IMG/VR virus record: IMGVR_UViG_3300010883_000240
Coordinates: 1-31,548 of that record
Length of the DNA: 31,548 nt
DNA from: a virus
Reading direction: 5' to 3' (one strand)
In this document: piece by piece, positions 4,126 through 25,722 of the stretch
Position numbering within the stretch: position 1 is the first letter of the stretch
How the letters are laid out: every line of letters starts with the position of its first letter
Notes under the pieces: model-generated
Seen by the model: the letters and a program-made list of their open reading frames with translations, nothing else
The model's database searches: none
Told to the model about the DNA's origin: nothing
Position numbers and translations under genes: made by a program

Positions 4126-4820
4126 TATTTCACCAAATCAAAATGTCGGCCATATACGTGTAGGTTTTGTACCTGCCATATAATATCACCTGCTTCATAG
4201 TTGACTTTACTGATACCAGACAGATCCTTAACTAATGAGTCAAGAATATATTTTTGCCATGCATAATCATTCTTGTATCCAAAGACAACGTCATTAGATC
4301 GCATTTGGACGACTGCATGGAGCTTATTATCTCGAACATAATAGGTGACTGAATTAGTGCAAATAAAGTCATTCTTACCATTCTCGTTATACTCTAACCA
4401 TATCGATGGCCGAGTGTAAATCATAGAAGCTCTTCGGCCGTCAGGATTATTTATCAATTCCTGGAGTACCATTTCATATTGTTCATGGTACATGTTACTA
4501 AAGATAAGATGACCATAATTCGAATTGATATTACCATATTCATCTGCAGTCATTTGCCAAGCATATGGCGGATCTTTTGGAGCATCCCCTTTACTATCCC
4601 ATCGATAGAGATCGTTAATATTAGTAGAACCGCTGAGATACCAATCAATCTCTGATTTTACGTAATCTTGGTTTACTGTACCAAATATCGCAGGTTCATC
4701 TGCAATAAAAGATGCACCCATAAGTTCAATAGTTTGTTGACCAGTTCTATCAGTAGTAAACTCTTCTGCTGCTAATTTATCAATAAAATCAGCACGGATA
4801 TCGTTAACTGTTAAGCGCAT
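4125..4820 (-). CDS. gp42: dCMP hydroxymethylase (T4 gp42-like, thymidylate synthase family)
   Basis: Makes 5-hydroxymethyl-dCMP from dCMP and methylene-THF. 231 residues (T4 gp42 is 246). Similarity to T4 gp42 as remembered is high: VDKTG/TDRTG, ASFVADEP, EINSNYG, RRxxMIYTRPS, DFxCTN and MRSNDVVFG..NDYAWQKY. Cys154 is the catalytic nucleophile (T4 C148). Asp185 in NDYAW corresponds to T4 Asp179, the residue that replaces the Asn of thymidylate synthases and gives preference for dCMP over dUMP. Thus the product should be hmdCMP rather than hmdUMP. It is the first gene of the hydroxymethylase-glyA-cd unit. The C-terminus is about 20 residues shorter than T4's. Confidence 0.93.
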   Translation of the reverse strand: MRLTVNDIRADFIDKLAAEEFTTDRTGQQTIELMGASFIADEPAIFGTVNQDYVKSEIDWYLSGSTNINDLYRWDSKGDAPKDPPYAWQMTADEYGNINSNYGHLIFSNMYHEQYEMVLQELINNPDGRRASMIYTRPSIWLEYNENGKNDFICTNSVTYYVRDNKLHAVVQMRSNDVVFGYKNDYAWQKYILDSLVKDLSGISKVNYEAGDIIWQVQNLHVYGRHFDLVK

Positions 4821-5181: not shown

Positions 5182-5211
5182 ATTATAGCATAGATCCATC
5201 TAGTTGTACAC
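5182..5211 (-). promoter_or_regulatory. Early-type promoter for the DUF5664-like gene
   Basis: Minus strand GTGTAC (5211-5206), 18-base spacer, TATAAT (5187-5182). Same architecture as the copies upstream of gp43, gp45, gp55, mazG and hsp20. It straddles the stop of the preceding gene. The expected transcript start is near 5175, giving a leader of about 20 bases. Confidence 0.7.
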
Positions 5212-7078: not shown

Positions 7079-7108
7079 ATTATACACTGTGTTCAATAGT
7101 TTGTACAC
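7079..7108 (-). promoter_or_regulatory. Early-type promoter for mazG
   Basis: Minus strand GTGTAC (7108-7103), 18-base spacer ending CAGTG, TATAAT (7084-7079). Sits between the gp43 stop and the mazG start, the only long gap there. Predicted transcript start near 7072. Confidence 0.75.
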
Positions 7109-18706: not shown

Positions 18707-18863
18707 TCCATGTCCTTAACGTCCAAGTGTTATCATCATTTTGAATCCACTCTATAACGGATCCATCTTCCCAATCCATTGCAGCTAATAGCTCATCCGG
18801 AAAGGTAAGTGTCAAATCGCCATCGGAATCTACTCCTACAGGCGCGATATATACATTGCTCAT
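18687..18863 (-). CDS. Small AbrB/MazE-like protein (58 residues)
   Basis: ATG at 18861-18863 overlaps the gp55 stop as ATGA and the 3' end overlaps gp47 by 20 bases, so it is tightly held in the operon. The pattern VDSDGDLTLTFPDELLAAMDWEDGSVIEW followed by a TWTLR strand matches the SpoVT-AbrB/MazE swapped-hairpin half-fold (G-x-[IL]-x-[IL]-P-x-[ED]-L...W.xGDxV). Such proteins bind DNA as dimers; acidic residues here make DNA binding uncertain. The position next to the late sigma factor is suggestive. Confidence 0.7.
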   Translation of the reverse strand: MSNVYIAPVGVDSDGDLTLTFPDELLAAMDWEDGSVIEWIQNDDNTWTLRTWNADSSS

Positions 18864-19459
18864 TCTAAAAACTCCGTTAGGTCTGAATCTGCGTGAATTG
18901 CACGTTTTTTCCGTTTCTTTTCTTCTTTAGCGAAGTCTTTAACTTCTTTGTCCTGGGTTTTAACTTTATCAATCCTCTCCTTAAGTTGATCGATATAGCT
19001 CATAATTTCATTTGCTCCTACATCAGTAGCATCAAATCCATCAACTAGGTCTTCAATTGTTGCTCTTGTTATGAATTTCATCTTGATGTCTTGCTGCTTC
19101 TTTTCTTTCGAAATCCGCCTTAAGAAAGCATACCATGTAATTTGAGTAAAATACGCAAATGCATTTGGCTTTCCGGTTCGTGTTGCAGTTTCAAGATTAT
19201 AATTATTAATAGCTTTTAAACAATTTTCTACTGCATCCATAACCATTTCTTCTCGGTACGTATAGCGAATAAAATTATGTTTATGTGATAAACCTTCGGC
19301 AATGCGCAAGAAACATTTCGCGATATACGTAGGTATCATTGGCGCTTCTATTTCTTGAATTTTTGCTTGGTTAGCTAAAGTAACGTAATCTACAACTGCT
19401 TGAGAAAATTCGGCATTATTCACATAATGAACGCTTTTCTTCTTTGCAATTTTGGTCAT
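18860..19459 (-). CDS. gp55: Late-transcription sigma factor gp55
   Basis: 199 residues from the ATG at 19457-19459, with GGAG six bases upstream (T4 gp55 is 185). A frame 19 residues longer would start within its own promoter and is rejected. YREEMVMDAVENCLKAINNY and PNAFAYFTQITWYAFLRRISKEKKQ are the region-2-like helices that recognise the -10 late element and core polymerase. The C-terminus is Lys-rich and ends SDLTEFLE, the acidic/hydrophobic tail expected to contact gp45. Late promoters of the matching TATAAATA type occur in this window. Confidence 0.93.
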   Translation of the reverse strand: MTKIAKKKSVHYVNNAEFSQAVVDYVTLANQAKIQEIEAPMIPTYIAKCFLRIAEGLSHKHNFIRYTYREEMVMDAVENCLKAINNYNLETATRTGKPNAFAYFTQITWYAFLRRISKEKKQQDIKMKFITRATIEDLVDGFDATDVGANEIMSYIDQLKERIDKVKTQDKEVKDFAKEEKKRKKRAIHADSDLTEFLE

Positions 19460-19486
19460 GGGGATCTCCATTTCATAATATATACC

Positions 19487-19516
19487 ATTATACACAGAAT
19501 TGAACAAAAAGTACAC
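19487..19516 (-). promoter_or_regulatory. Early-type promoter for gp55
   Basis: Minus strand GTGTAC (19516-19511), 18-base spacer ending TGTG, TATAAT (19492-19487). Predicted transcript start near 19480. It stands back to back with a plus-strand copy at 19550-19579. Confidence 0.75.
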
Positions 19517-19549
19517 AAATGATTTTTGCTTTGAAATTAAAAAATAATA

Positions 19550-19579
19550 TTGTACACGTCGCTAAAAACAGTGTATAAT
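19550..19579 (+). promoter_or_regulatory. Early-type promoter on the plus strand (antisense)
   Basis: Plus strand TTGTAC (19550-19555), 18-base spacer ending CAGTG, TATAAT (19574-19579). It has the same element, spacing and CAGTG context as the gp43 and mazG promoters, but it points rightward into the 3' end of the 139-residue gene. No plus-strand gene follows; the first ATGs give only a few codons. If active it makes RNA antisense to 19614 and beyond. Confidence 0.6.
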
Positions 19580-19613
19580 AAGTCTATGCCACCGGGGTGA
19601 AGGAGTATACTGG

Positions 19614-20033
19614 TTAATGTAAGATCGCTTTATGATCATCATCTAAACTATCCGACTCATCTTGATCATAATCTTCGAAGGCGTCTTTTATTTGTTGGTC
19701 GATTGCATCTAATGTATCAGACACTTCTTCTGCGACCAGATCTTTAATAACATCAACATAGTATTCCACTGCAACTTTGCATGGAATGGTTTCAGCTACA
19801 ATATGGTCTGCGTTAATGAGTACCAATGCATCCGGATCGGTATTCATTAGCACCCAGGGCTTATACGTATAATACTTCAAAGCTTGATAGTTACCATCTT
19901 CATCGAAATCATCGGTGCCAATTATTCTTAGAGCTTTTTTAACTACTATTTGATTATTTTCTTCGTCATCCCACTCTATAACATCACATATAATTTCTTC
20001 GTTATTGGTTAGCTTAAATTGTCTAAGTTCCAT
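19614..20033 (-). CDS. Conserved acidic phage protein, Sm-like N-terminus?
   Basis: 139 residues with GGAG five bases before ATG. The first 60 residues have short beta-strand patterns (RQFKLTNNEEIICDVIEW, NQIVVKKALRI) resembling Sm/Hfq-like small barrels seen in marine T4-like phage proteins; this is inference. The C-terminus is strongly acidic (EDYDQDESDSLDDDHK). It lies between uvsW and gp55 and probably belongs to the recombination/transcription unit. Function unknown. Confidence 0.75.
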   Translation of the reverse strand: MELRQFKLTNNEEIICDVIEWDDEENNQIVVKKALRIIGTDDFDEDGNYQALKYYTYKPWVLMNTDPDALVLINADHIVAETIPCKVAVEYYVDVIKDLVAEEVSDTLDAIDQQIKDAFEDYDQDESDSLDDDHKAILH

Positions 20034-20045
20034 TATATCTCCGGT

Positions 20046-21542
20046 TTATATGTTTATCTTATATGTCTTATATATGAAGTTCTCAGCTTTATACATTTTT
20101 AGTCTTTCATAGGAATGCAATAGAGCAAAATTTTGTTGCGTGGTTCCGTTGGAAAGGTCATCCGTGATATCATACAATTGTGTGATACGCCCGTCATCTG
20201 ATTTACGTAAACCTCTCCCGATGGATTGGAGGACCCTGATCTGAGATTTTGAAGGAGAAGCAAAGACAATGTTATGCAAATTCCTGATGTTAATACCAGT
20301 ACTAAAAGTACCCAAGCTCGCGACGATAATGGCATCAGCTTGCTTCTCCGTAATTTTTCGTATAGCTTCTCGGTCTGAAGTTTCTGTTGCCCCCGATACA
20401 AAGAATATTTTTCTTCCTTCACGTGCTTTATCCTCTATTAAGTCAAATAGTATTTTACCATGTTTTTCGACAAATTGAAACAATACTAAGGTATTACCTT
20501 TTTGATCGAGAGCAAGATTGCGAATAAACTGATTACGCTTCTCGTGTCTTACGATCCAATCAATTTCTTCTTGATATGATTTCTTTTGAAAATCTTTTAA
20601 ATCCTGGTAGTTAAGCACCAATCGCCTAATCTCAAGTTTTGCTAATGTATCGTTATCTTGTAAAGTTCTTGTTGTGGTAACTCTTGATACTCTTCCGAAT
20701 AAGCCTTGTAATACAAGCTCATGTGTCTGTGTTCCATCTAATGTTCCGGTTGTTCCAAACCTATATGCTGCTTCTGTGCACTTGTTCATGATTGATGTAA
20801 GCGATTTAGACTTAAACCCATGGCATTCGTCACCAATTACTATACCGAATTGTTCGAACCATGATCTTTCTAATTTATATATACTCTGCCAAGTGGATAC
20901 TATAATTGGTATATCAGTATTCTTTTCTTTACCAGAGTATATTTTGTGTACACCATCAGGCGTATAACCATAGTCAACAAAATCATTTGTCATTTGTTCT
21001 ACTAATGATGTAGTTGGAACAATTACCAATACTTTCTGGTATTCTTCGGCTAACCGTTCTAAGAAATACCTAACTAATATATAAATTATAAGGGACTTAC
21101 CAGAACCAGTAGGTGATAATAAAATGGCACGCTTTTTTTCAAGACCCTTACATACTGCATCAAATTGATAATCGCGTATCTCAAATGGAAGGTTAATGCT
21201 ATGAATGAAATCAATTATTTCCTTTGGATCTATCTTGTCGTTATTAGCGGAATTGTCCGGGTATCCATACTCGGTTTTTTCTGTGTGTATGGTATAGCCA
21301 CGCTGACCGGCAAATTTCTCAAGGTGATCGATGAGTCCAGCCGGTAATTCATTAGACCTTACATTGAATAGCCTAATCTTCCCGTCCCAAAGCTTATTGC
21401 GAAATGCAGGCATAAATTTATAGCCAGGAACAAAAAATGAAAAGAATTCATTTAGTTCTTGGGCCTGACCAAAGTCGCACTCAACTTGTAAAGTAGAATG
21501 GCTTAGCTTACGTACAATTACGGTATCAGCTTCCAGCTTCAA
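20046..21542 (-). CDS. uvsW: UvsW helicase
   Basis: 498 residues (T4 UvsW is 503). Superfamily-2 DNA/RNA helicase that unwinds R-loops and drives branch migration and fork regression. Walker A PTGSGKS (144-150), DECH box (238-241), STWQSIYK (motif Ib region) and motif VI QSIGRGLR are present, with the N-terminal domain of the family. Start TTG (21540-21542) lies in the end of uvsY, with GGAG six bases upstream. The uvsY-uvsW pair is conserved in T4-like phages. Confidence 0.95.
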   Translation of the reverse strand: MKLEADTVIVRKLSHSTLQVECDFGQAQELNEFFSFFVPGYKFMPAFRNKLWDGKIRLFNVRSNELPAGLIDHLEKFAGQRGYTIHTEKTEYGYPDNSANNDKIDPKEIIDFIHSINLPFEIRDYQFDAVCKGLEKKRAILLSPTGSGKSLIIYILVRYFLERLAEEYQKVLVIVPTTSLVEQMTNDFVDYGYTPDGVHKIYSGKEKNTDIPIIVSTWQSIYKLERSWFEQFGIVIGDECHGFKSKSLTSIMNKCTEAAYRFGTTGTLDGTQTHELVLQGLFGRVSRVTTTRTLQDNDTLAKLEIRRLVLNYQDLKDFQKKSYQEEIDWIVRHEKRNQFIRNLALDQKGNTLVLFQFVEKHGKILFDLIEDKAREGRKIFFVSGATETSDREAIRKITEKQADAIIVASLGTFSTGINIRNLHNIVFASPSKSQIRVLQSIGRGLRKSDDGRITQLYDITDDLSNGTTQQNFALLHSYERLKMYKAENFIYKTYKINI

Positions 21543-23994: not shown

Positions 23995-25053
23995 TTATTT
24001 ATGTGTTTTTTCGAGAGCTTTAAGATAGCTATCCATATAGCCTGAAACTTGAACGGGTGAATCACCCTCATCAGCTTCGACATATGCAGCTTCTGTAGAC
24101 TCTGTTACGGGTTTTGCGAAATATGATTCTTTAACTGTTGAAACTTTCCTAGAAAATGTTTCTTCGTCTTCAAAATCAATATCTTCAACTAGTGACTTAA
24201 GCTTTTCAACTTGAGTTTCAGCAAGATCACGTGAATGCTCACGGATAATTGCGTCACGCGCATAAGTTTCAAGGGCTTCTGCCATTTCGATAGCTTTACC
24301 AGTTGCGTCGTTAAGTTGCTCTTCGAGCTTCTCAACAGCATCTGCCAAATCATCAACGAGGTCGACTTTAGACTCAGGTACTTCGATATAAGACTGTTCA
24401 AACAAACCTTTCAGGCCTGTCATAAAGTCTTCGGCAATCTCAGATCTAAGACCGTTCTGGATAGCGACTTTGTTGTCTTCCATCCATTGTTCAACTACAT
24501 AGTTGAGGTATGAATCGACTTTTTCTACAAGCTCAGACTTAGTAGATGTTACAGCTTCGGAAAGCTCTTCATCATACTTAGCTTCAAGACGATCGATCTC
24601 TTCAGACAGCTTTGATTTAATTGCTGCTTCGAAGATTACTTCGGCTTTATCCTTAAACTCTTCTGATAAAGTAGCTTCATCAGAAATAAGTGCATTAAGG
24701 TCTTGTGAAAAATCAGCTTGGTACTGAATTTCTACCTGCTCTTCTGCGCCTTCTTCGACATCCAAATTTTCAGCCATCATCTTAGAAAGCATGACACTGA
24801 GGTCTTCTTTCTTAGCTTTTGACATCATTTGATAAGCGGCATTAATCATACCAGCTTTTGTCTTAGGCATCGGATCTTTTTTGGTGTTGTCACCTTTACG
24901 CTTTTTAGCGGTTCCAGTTGCTTCACCAGCTTTATCCACAGAATCTACAGATTGAGCTTCAGCATTCTTAGGATCATGAGCAGTTGCCATTTCCACGACT
25001 TCGTTCTCAACGGCATCATGGAGCTCTTGATCTTCAGTATATTGATCAGTCAT
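23995..25053 (-). CDS. gp22: Prohead scaffolding protein (gp22)
   Basis: 352 residues (T4 gp22 is 269). Highly charged, long helical/coiled-coil protein that forms the prohead core. An acidic N-terminus, a Lys-rich patch at 50-65 and an Ala/Glu/Leu-rich core are seen. Three L-S-E sites at about 129-131, 149-151 and 164-166 are likely gp21 cleavage points. AAAGGAGT precedes ATG. It lies between the protease and capsid genes as in T4. Confidence 0.9.
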   Translation of the reverse strand: MTDQYTEDQELHDAVENEVVEMATAHDPKNAEAQSVDSVDKAGEATGTAKKRKGDNTKKDPMPKTKAGMINAAYQMMSKAKKEDLSVMLSKMMAENLDVEEGAEEQVEIQYQADFSQDLNALISDEATLSEEFKDKAEVIFEAAIKSKLSEEIDRLEAKYDEELSEAVTSTKSELVEKVDSYLNYVVEQWMEDNKVAIQNGLRSEIAEDFMTGLKGLFEQSYIEVPESKVDLVDDLADAVEKLEEQLNDATGKAIEMAEALETYARDAIIREHSRDLAETQVEKLKSLVEDIDFEDEETFSRKVSTVKESYFAKPVTESTEAAYVEADEGDSPVQVSGYMDSYLKALEKTHK

Positions 25054-25065
25054 AATTGACTCCTT

Positions 25066-25722
25066 TTATTTTGATTTGAGTAACGAGAGGAAATTCTTAA
25101 ACTCACGAACTTGTACCTCATAGAGATTTTTTCGTGGAGCTTTCCTAATTTCGGTCTCCATTTGTTCAATATGTCTTGCTTCGACCATACCGTTATTCCA
25201 TACCCATTCTACACCTTCCATAACTCCATTAACAAAAGCATTTGGTGCAGATGGATCTTGGACGATATCTACAGCGTTGAGCATGAAGTCGTTACCAACC
25301 ATCATTGCACCACCGCCTCTCTGCAGACTTCCCATACCACGAGTTGAAACGCCAACCCGGACGCCACCATCGAGAAGACCTTCAACGATCTTACCCATAG
25401 GAGTGTTCAGTATTGTCGCCTTTCCTACAACATCATTTCCCTTCCAATGAAGAGATTCGATCTTGTGTGAAACTTTATCTAGGTTGATTGTTGGGCCCTC
25501 AGGATGATTGAGTTCTCCAACAGCTCTACCTTTTGAAACTTGTTCATCAACATACTTACCAACAGCTGATTCCATAACAGCCTTTGGATATATTCTACCA
25601 TTTCTATTTTTTTGTTCAGCTGAAGCAAAAACACCTTCGATAGCATATTTTTTACTGCCATCTTTATTTGCTTCTACAATCATTTCTAGATTTTGATCAG
25701 TATATTCAGCAATCAGTTTCAT
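25066..25722 (-). CDS. gp21: Prohead maturation protease (gp21)
   Basis: 218 residues (T4 gp21 is 212). Serine protease that cleaves the core and capsid proteins at (L/I)-x-E. GELNHPE carries the catalytic His73 and VGVSTRGMG the catalytic Ser126, the pattern of the herpesvirus-like phage protease fold. ATG overlaps the end of the 69-residue gene by four bases, with GGAAAA as ribosome site. Confidence 0.94.
   Translation of the reverse strand: MKLIAEYTDQNLEMIVEANKDGSKKYAIEGVFASAEQKNRNGRIYPKAVMESAVGKYVDEQVSKGRAVGELNHPEGPTINLDKVSHKIESLHWKGNDVVGKATILNTPMGKIVEGLLDGGVRVGVSTRGMGSLQRGGGAMMVGNDFMLNAVDIVQDPSAPNAFVNGVMEGVEWVWNNGMVEARHIEQMETEIRKAPRKNLYEVQVREFKNFLSLLKSK

Follow-up and report, generated by a model that had tools for sequence, protein, structure and literature searches.

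A conserved backward-facing promoter with a G-rich leader at the downstream end of the uvsW block in marine T4-like phages

What could a phage gain from an early-type promoter that points backwards into the 3' ends of two genes and has no gene of its own? The question arises in a 31.5-kb virus fragment (the window, meaning the whole stretch of 31,548 nucleotides analysed) with T4-like genes on the minus strand in the series tail tube, uvsY, uvsW, a 139-aa gene, gp55, a 58-aa gene, gp47 and onward. Among annotated phages C48C1 (Kyanoviridae) is nearest, with a gp55 that is 58.8 % identical, and cyanophages come next; contig L005 has a gp55 identical to that of the window. No phage record matched the region as a whole at the nucleotide level, and a tRNA search of the window found none.

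A plus-strand early promoter without a gene

The first-pass annotation had placed on the plus strand an early-type promoter with the 18-base spacer and CAGTG-TATAAT context of the minus-strand early promoters (Table 1). Layout and sequence bear this out: the 12-mer ACAGTGTATAAT has exact copies in the minus-strand promoters at 7084 and 9587, and the GTAC-N18-TATAAT layout is common to the gp55 promoter and the minus-strand sites at 5187, 11781 and 15719. The pattern GTGTATAAT has three minus-strand occurrences in the window and a single plus-strand one, and none when read backwards. With -35 and -10 hexamers at 16-18 nt spacing, the site is of the sigma-70 type, like the other early promoters of the phage, and has a consensus -35 instead of that expected of a MotA-type middle promoter.

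Generic promoter-like matches in 10 kb of the region numbered 44 with 36 expected by chance, so a consensus match alone proves little. The plus-strand promoter rises above chance because of the early-promoter context it has in common with the others and, above all, because of its conservation in relatives. It is very likely an active promoter. Its coordinates confirm that it faces the 3' ends of the 139-residue gene and uvsW, and it was also rightly described as lacking its own gene: the plus strand past about 19586 contains just ATG-CCA-CCG-GGG-TGA, a 6-codon GTG frame and ATG-TAA, and the first plus-strand ORF after that to reach 30 aa is a 31-codon frame with a TTG start at 19777.

The early promoters on the minus strand of the window (5187, 7084, 9587, 11781, 15719 and 19492) have a GTGTAC-like -35 placed 18 nt from TATAAT, and those of relatives have TTTACA or TTGACA. 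This difference suggests lineage-specific promoter recognition.

Table 1. Features of the element and its surroundings in the window
Feature	Position	Strand	Basis or remark
A/T-rich stretch AAAAATAATA, UP-element-like	19540-19549	+	sequence; abuts the -35 upstream; UP function putative
-35-like element TTGTAC of the antisense promoter	19550-19555	+	sequence; TTTACA, TTGACA or GTGTAC at the equivalent place in relatives
Spacer, 18 nt, ending ACAGTG	19556-19573	+	sequence
-10 element TATAAT, ACAGTG context	19574-19579	+	sequence
Predicted transcription start (A)	19586	+	placed by distance from the -10
G-clustered purine leader GGGGTGAAGGAG	19594-19605	+	purine/G conservation, G-run statistics, hybrid energy
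GTATACT (RTATAC) motif, end of conserved part	19605-19611	+	alignment of 54 elements; followed by reverse complement of the 139-aa gene stop codon
Intrinsic-terminator-like site, possible 3' end (weak)	21257-21274	+	only plus-strand one found downstream; about 1.7 kb from the promoter, inside uvsW
gp55 late sigma factor (PHROG 234)	18860-19462	-	
Divergent gp55 early promoter, GTGTAC (19516-19511)-N18-TATAAT (19492-19487)	19487-19516	-	separable from the element in relatives
139-aa gene (PHROG 527/471)	19614-20033	-	first gene the antisense RNA would cross
uvsW-like helicase (PHROG 16)	20046-21542	-	second gene it would cross, antisense

Conservation and placement of the element

The region upstream of gp55 was extracted from 80 gp55 loci of viral contigs plus C48C1, and redundancy was removed. 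A reverse-strand sigma-70 promoter scoring at least 10/12 is present in 54 of the 56 non-redundant intergenic regions, compared with a mean of 9.4 and a maximum of 18 in dinucleotide shuffles, the relatives sharing ancestry so that these counts are not fully independent. Reverse promoters scoring 12/12 number 22, with 0.1 in the shuffles; L073-type loci score only 8 and have a degenerate -10. Most relatives also have A/T tracts directly upstream of the -35. Six annotated cyanophages have the promoter at the equivalent place in the same orientation, and in each of the 37 non-redundant cyanophage-type loci it reads TTGACA-N17/18-TANNNT, with AACNNTGTNAGGGTT or a close variant after it. The first-pass annotation had asked whether otherwise conserved relatives lose the element, and neither these loci nor the 56 regions point to a loss. 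This deep conservation is the new fact about the backward-facing promoter; our search of the literature found no report of the element.

When 54 elements are aligned, the -10 is followed in conserved order by a purine/G tract, RTATAC and the stop codon of the upstream gene, where conservation ends whichever gene that is, including uvsW itself in L077. A profile of the full element finds its best match at the reverse site upstream of gp55 in C48C1, in the window and in three further genomes (G001, G002 and G003), with weaker near-full-length matches at G001 140225 and G003 25259; the full element is almost unique within each non-cyanophage genome searched. What is conserved also takes in a G-rich leader that was absent from the first-pass annotation. 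We take the promoter to be a genuine sequence feature that is under selection jointly with its leader.

The window promoter stands back-to-back with the gp55 promoter, as annotated, and it might be no more than a by-product, if the gp55 promoter is symmetric and fires both ways, or might serve gp55 as an occlusion switch. Bacteria often have bidirectional promoters (PMC12825309), the window site is near-symmetric (the opposite strand reads TATACA-N17-TACAAT), and the divergent -35 elements overlap in many cyanophages. The element can do without its pairing with gp55, however. Five loci had been left out of the 56-region count as a different gene lies directly before gp55, and in each the element was found further upstream: at least one gene separates it from gp55 in L051, L062, L065 and L066, where it stays with the uvsW block, and a 50-codon frame does so in L077. 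The gene preceding the element is the 139-aa gene in the window, a further gene of about 212 aa in others and uvsW directly in L077. Because the element keeps to the end of the uvsW block even where gp55 lies one or more genes away, the gp55 promoter does not account for it as a by-product. The by-product reading, largely refuted by the four loci with intervening genes, also leaves the conserved leader unexplained and has to span a median of 81 bp between the two divergent -10s in the window group; we consider it very improbable. Bacterial bidirectional promoters are alike in transcribing divergently from one region; the marine reverse promoter differs in having a complete -35/-10 and a conserved leader of its own and in being separable from the forward promoter.

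In the cyanophage gp55 upstream regions (L143-L222) the gp55 promoter and its divergent antisense counterpart often share TTGACA...TGTCAA as an overlap, which would let RNA polymerase occupy only one of them at a time.

Instead, the sense (late) mRNA could be the target: the element would serve it as a C-rich 3' UTR, as a terminator or as a stabiliser of its 3' end, and the reverse promoter match would be secondary. Two things agree with this: the element lies directly behind the stop codon of the block's last gene, whatever that gene is, and an inverted repeat follows the C tract in about one third of the relatives. Such a role would not need the complete -35/-10 pairs at 16-18 nt seen in nearly all loci; the stems have 4-6 weak pairs and no T tract, and marine picocyanobacteria are not known to have Rho. 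The next sense gene in L065 starts at 4478, just past the reverse -35, which leaves no room for a promoter of its own. Sense transcription must therefore cross the element there, which disfavours a sense terminator, and we consider action on the sense mRNA improbable.

The G-rich leader and the comparison with T4 oriF

The G-clustered purine leader keeps a fixed distance from the promoter: aligned on the -10, the 54 relatives have mostly G or A at positions 16-26 after it, with about 4 % C. GGGG is found in the leader of 30 of the 54 elements (56 %), compared with none of 53 gp55 leaders at the same loci and none of 120 other forward leaders; other reverse sites have it once in 61. The hybrid-minus-duplex energy over the first 30 nt, estimated with nearest-neighbour values, is -4.25 kcal/mol for the element compared with -1.86 and -0.51 kcal/mol for the controls (p = 5e-7 and 7e-15), and the window RNA reaches -5.95 kcal/mol. 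In this estimate the leader favours an RNA:DNA hybrid over the duplex, which may make the transcript prone to R-loops.

The G tract was also considered as an ordinary Shine-Dalgarno sequence, which is unlikely: none of 173 sense leaders has GGGG, and SD-like 5-mers occur in 41 % compared with 74 % at gp55. The resemblance is real in one copy. On the reverse strand of G003 (24830-25260; L137:4830-5260), a second, weaker copy of the element drives an ordinary HExxH-containing gene of 121 aa, with GGGAAGG-TATACT ahead of the ATG. There GGGAAGG serves as the ribosome site; the G/purine signal could thus be inherited in part from an mRNA leader, and the antisense element itself may descend from a gene start of this kind.

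Promoter and leader also occur together in sense orientation, once or twice per genome, in five of the seven cyanophage genomes examined (Syn9, S-SM1, P-RSM1, G005 and G007), located in an early small-gene region and in S-SM1 also upstream of CP12; the leader is therefore not exclusive to antisense use. The antisense element has its near-palindromic first transcribed sequence AACNNTGTNAGGGTT in common with Syn9 52764, S-SM1 14275 and 49015, P-RSM1 11068 (record position), G005 53358 and G007 41954, and the promoters that share it are possibly a co-regulated class or carry an operator.

An inverted repeat beginning 1-2 nt after the -10 is present in 16 of the 54 relatives and in 13 of 36 cyanophage loci (maximum of 5 in shuffles in either case) and is absent from gp55 and other forward promoters. 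In the relatives its symmetry centre lies 7.5-8 nt after the -10, at about the predicted start position, and pelagiphage HTVC008M has the promoter and the palindromic start without the G tract. The start-site palindrome may be an operator. The window itself does not have the repeat and, though it is statistically real in relatives, we therefore keep it out of the main claim.

A predicted hybrid-prone RNA beside uvsW recalls the T4 origin oriF. In T4 (NC_000866) uvsW lies at 112677-114440 (+), and the annotation puts oriF at 115321 and its primer RNA on the minus strand; oriF thus lies downstream of uvsW with the primer RNA running toward the uvsW 3' end, the same relative geometry as the marine element, which makes an RNA-primed origin the leading mechanistic alternative. 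T4 oriF acts by a promoter-driven R-loop that UvsW later unwinds (PMC3016281), and the G-clusters of the leader fit the preference of R-loop initiation for G-clusters on the non-template strand (PMC4489302). As a counterpart of oriF(uvsY), the reverse transcript would form an R-loop just after its start, RNase H would trim it to a primer, leading-strand synthesis would proceed toward uvsW, and UvsW would later remove the R-loop. The near-uniqueness of the full element in the non-cyanophage genomes is in keeping with an origin, and so is a T4-type RNase H in G001 and G002.

Several observations weigh against an origin. T4-type RNase H was not found in five of the seven genomes searched, and cyanophages also carry the sense-orientation copies. 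In 12 genomes the GC skew had no local step at the element, although the test is a weak one, some T4 origins having no such shift either. No classical A+T-rich unwinding region turned up (AT 0.65 downstream), and the T4 uvsY leader is not hybrid-prone (+0.09 kcal/mol) and has no sequence in common with the marine element. The two systems are alike in a promoter downstream of uvsW, an RNA toward the uvsW 3' end and a short promoter-plus-leader control site. T4 oriF, or ori(uvsY), however, has a MotA middle promoter, a primer RNA that doubles as uvsY mRNA and an R-loop in an A+T-rich element; the marine element combines a consensus -35/-10 with a G-rich leader, has no gene of its own and is found away from uvsY.

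G-rich primer RNAs near a promoter are also found in ColE1 RNA II and mitochondrial CSB II, where they stay hybridised and prime DNA synthesis. The marine element resembles them in its G-rich RNA near a promoter and has no sequence relation to them, and priming by it is only putative. Our literature search found no replication origin reported for T4-like cyanophages and relatives. On balance a counterpart of oriF is unlikely. A little less likely still is the broader claim that the element is a conserved replication origin of marine T4-like phages, or one of a few, at which an early promoter and a G-rich RNA hybrid at the end of the uvsW block prime DNA synthesis in an oriF-like relation to uvsW without sequence similarity.

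The transcript and its possible action

An opposite-strand promoter aimed into a gene, with no gene of its own, defines a cis-antisense arrangement, and the transcript is probably, with good confidence, a noncoding RNA. An encoded peptide was rejected: the longest frames range from 0 to 97 codons across loci, none is conserved, and the window has a start-stop ATG-TAA. The gene before the element frequently closes with a His codon (CAT/CAC; 19614-19619 in the window, and in relatives), which the antisense RNA reads as ATG or GTG, often with a stop at once.

The annotation had proposed an antisense or small regulatory RNA. Antisense direction and noncoding nature hold up as conserved, but a discrete structured small RNA finds no support. 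A trans-acting or discrete RNA of about 30-150 nt would suit the conserved first 30 nt or so and the lack of an ORF, but sequence conservation of the transcript ends there, no stable fold was found (z = +1.45), and an Rfam covariance-model search of the window gave no match. No terminator lies within 1.5 kb downstream in 52 of the 54 loci (two have one), and the terminator-like sites downstream show no conservation in relatives. Beyond the cyanophages it is the composition of the leader, more than its exact sequence, that is conserved, which is ill-suited to a seed. We consider such an RNA improbable. The one precedent found in our literature search for a conserved antisense RNA in T4-like cyanophages and relatives is CfrI of cyanophage S-PM2, which is alike as an antisense RNA of a T4-like marine phage but differs in locus, being cited in PMC5931967 as an RNA of the psbA region linked to psbA and a homing endonuclease.

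Since promoter and G-rich RNA start are kept in nearly every related ocean phage checked, the promoter probably makes a working non-coding RNA. The best-supported reading is an early, cis-acting, hybrid-prone antisense transcript, to which we assign a probability of about 0.5. The analysis shows the site, how it is conserved and oriented, what the leader is made of and that its placement does not depend on gp55; RNA synthesis, hybrid formation and any effect are inferred. Early in infection, host RNA polymerase would start near 19586 and run backwards through the 139-aa gene into uvsW, yielding a noncoding antisense RNA. Because its first 25 nt or so are G-clustered and purine-rich, unusually good pairing of the nascent RNA with its template would be expected. 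Transcription, together with this RNA:DNA hybrid, would then work in cis at the block end and counter sense transcription of uvsW for as long as the early promoters stay on, and the hybrid might also supply a primer for DNA synthesis. That the effect is exerted in cis, through antisense transcription or the hybrid, stands at slightly less than even odds, and a delay of uvsW by the antisense RNA is possible. Against the antisense reading, a plain antisense promoter would need no conserved leader.

On this reading the plus-strand segment 19550-19611 is the copy, in one marine T4-like phage, of a noncoding element that is conserved where the uvsW block ends downstream. The ocean is rich in T4-like cyanophages and their relatives, and an unannotated element sits at one fixed place in nearly every genome examined; its RNA perhaps helps to start DNA copying or holds late genes back. 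The element bears on the choice between an origin and antisense control, and on how general the link between uvsW and an origin transcript in T4 may be.
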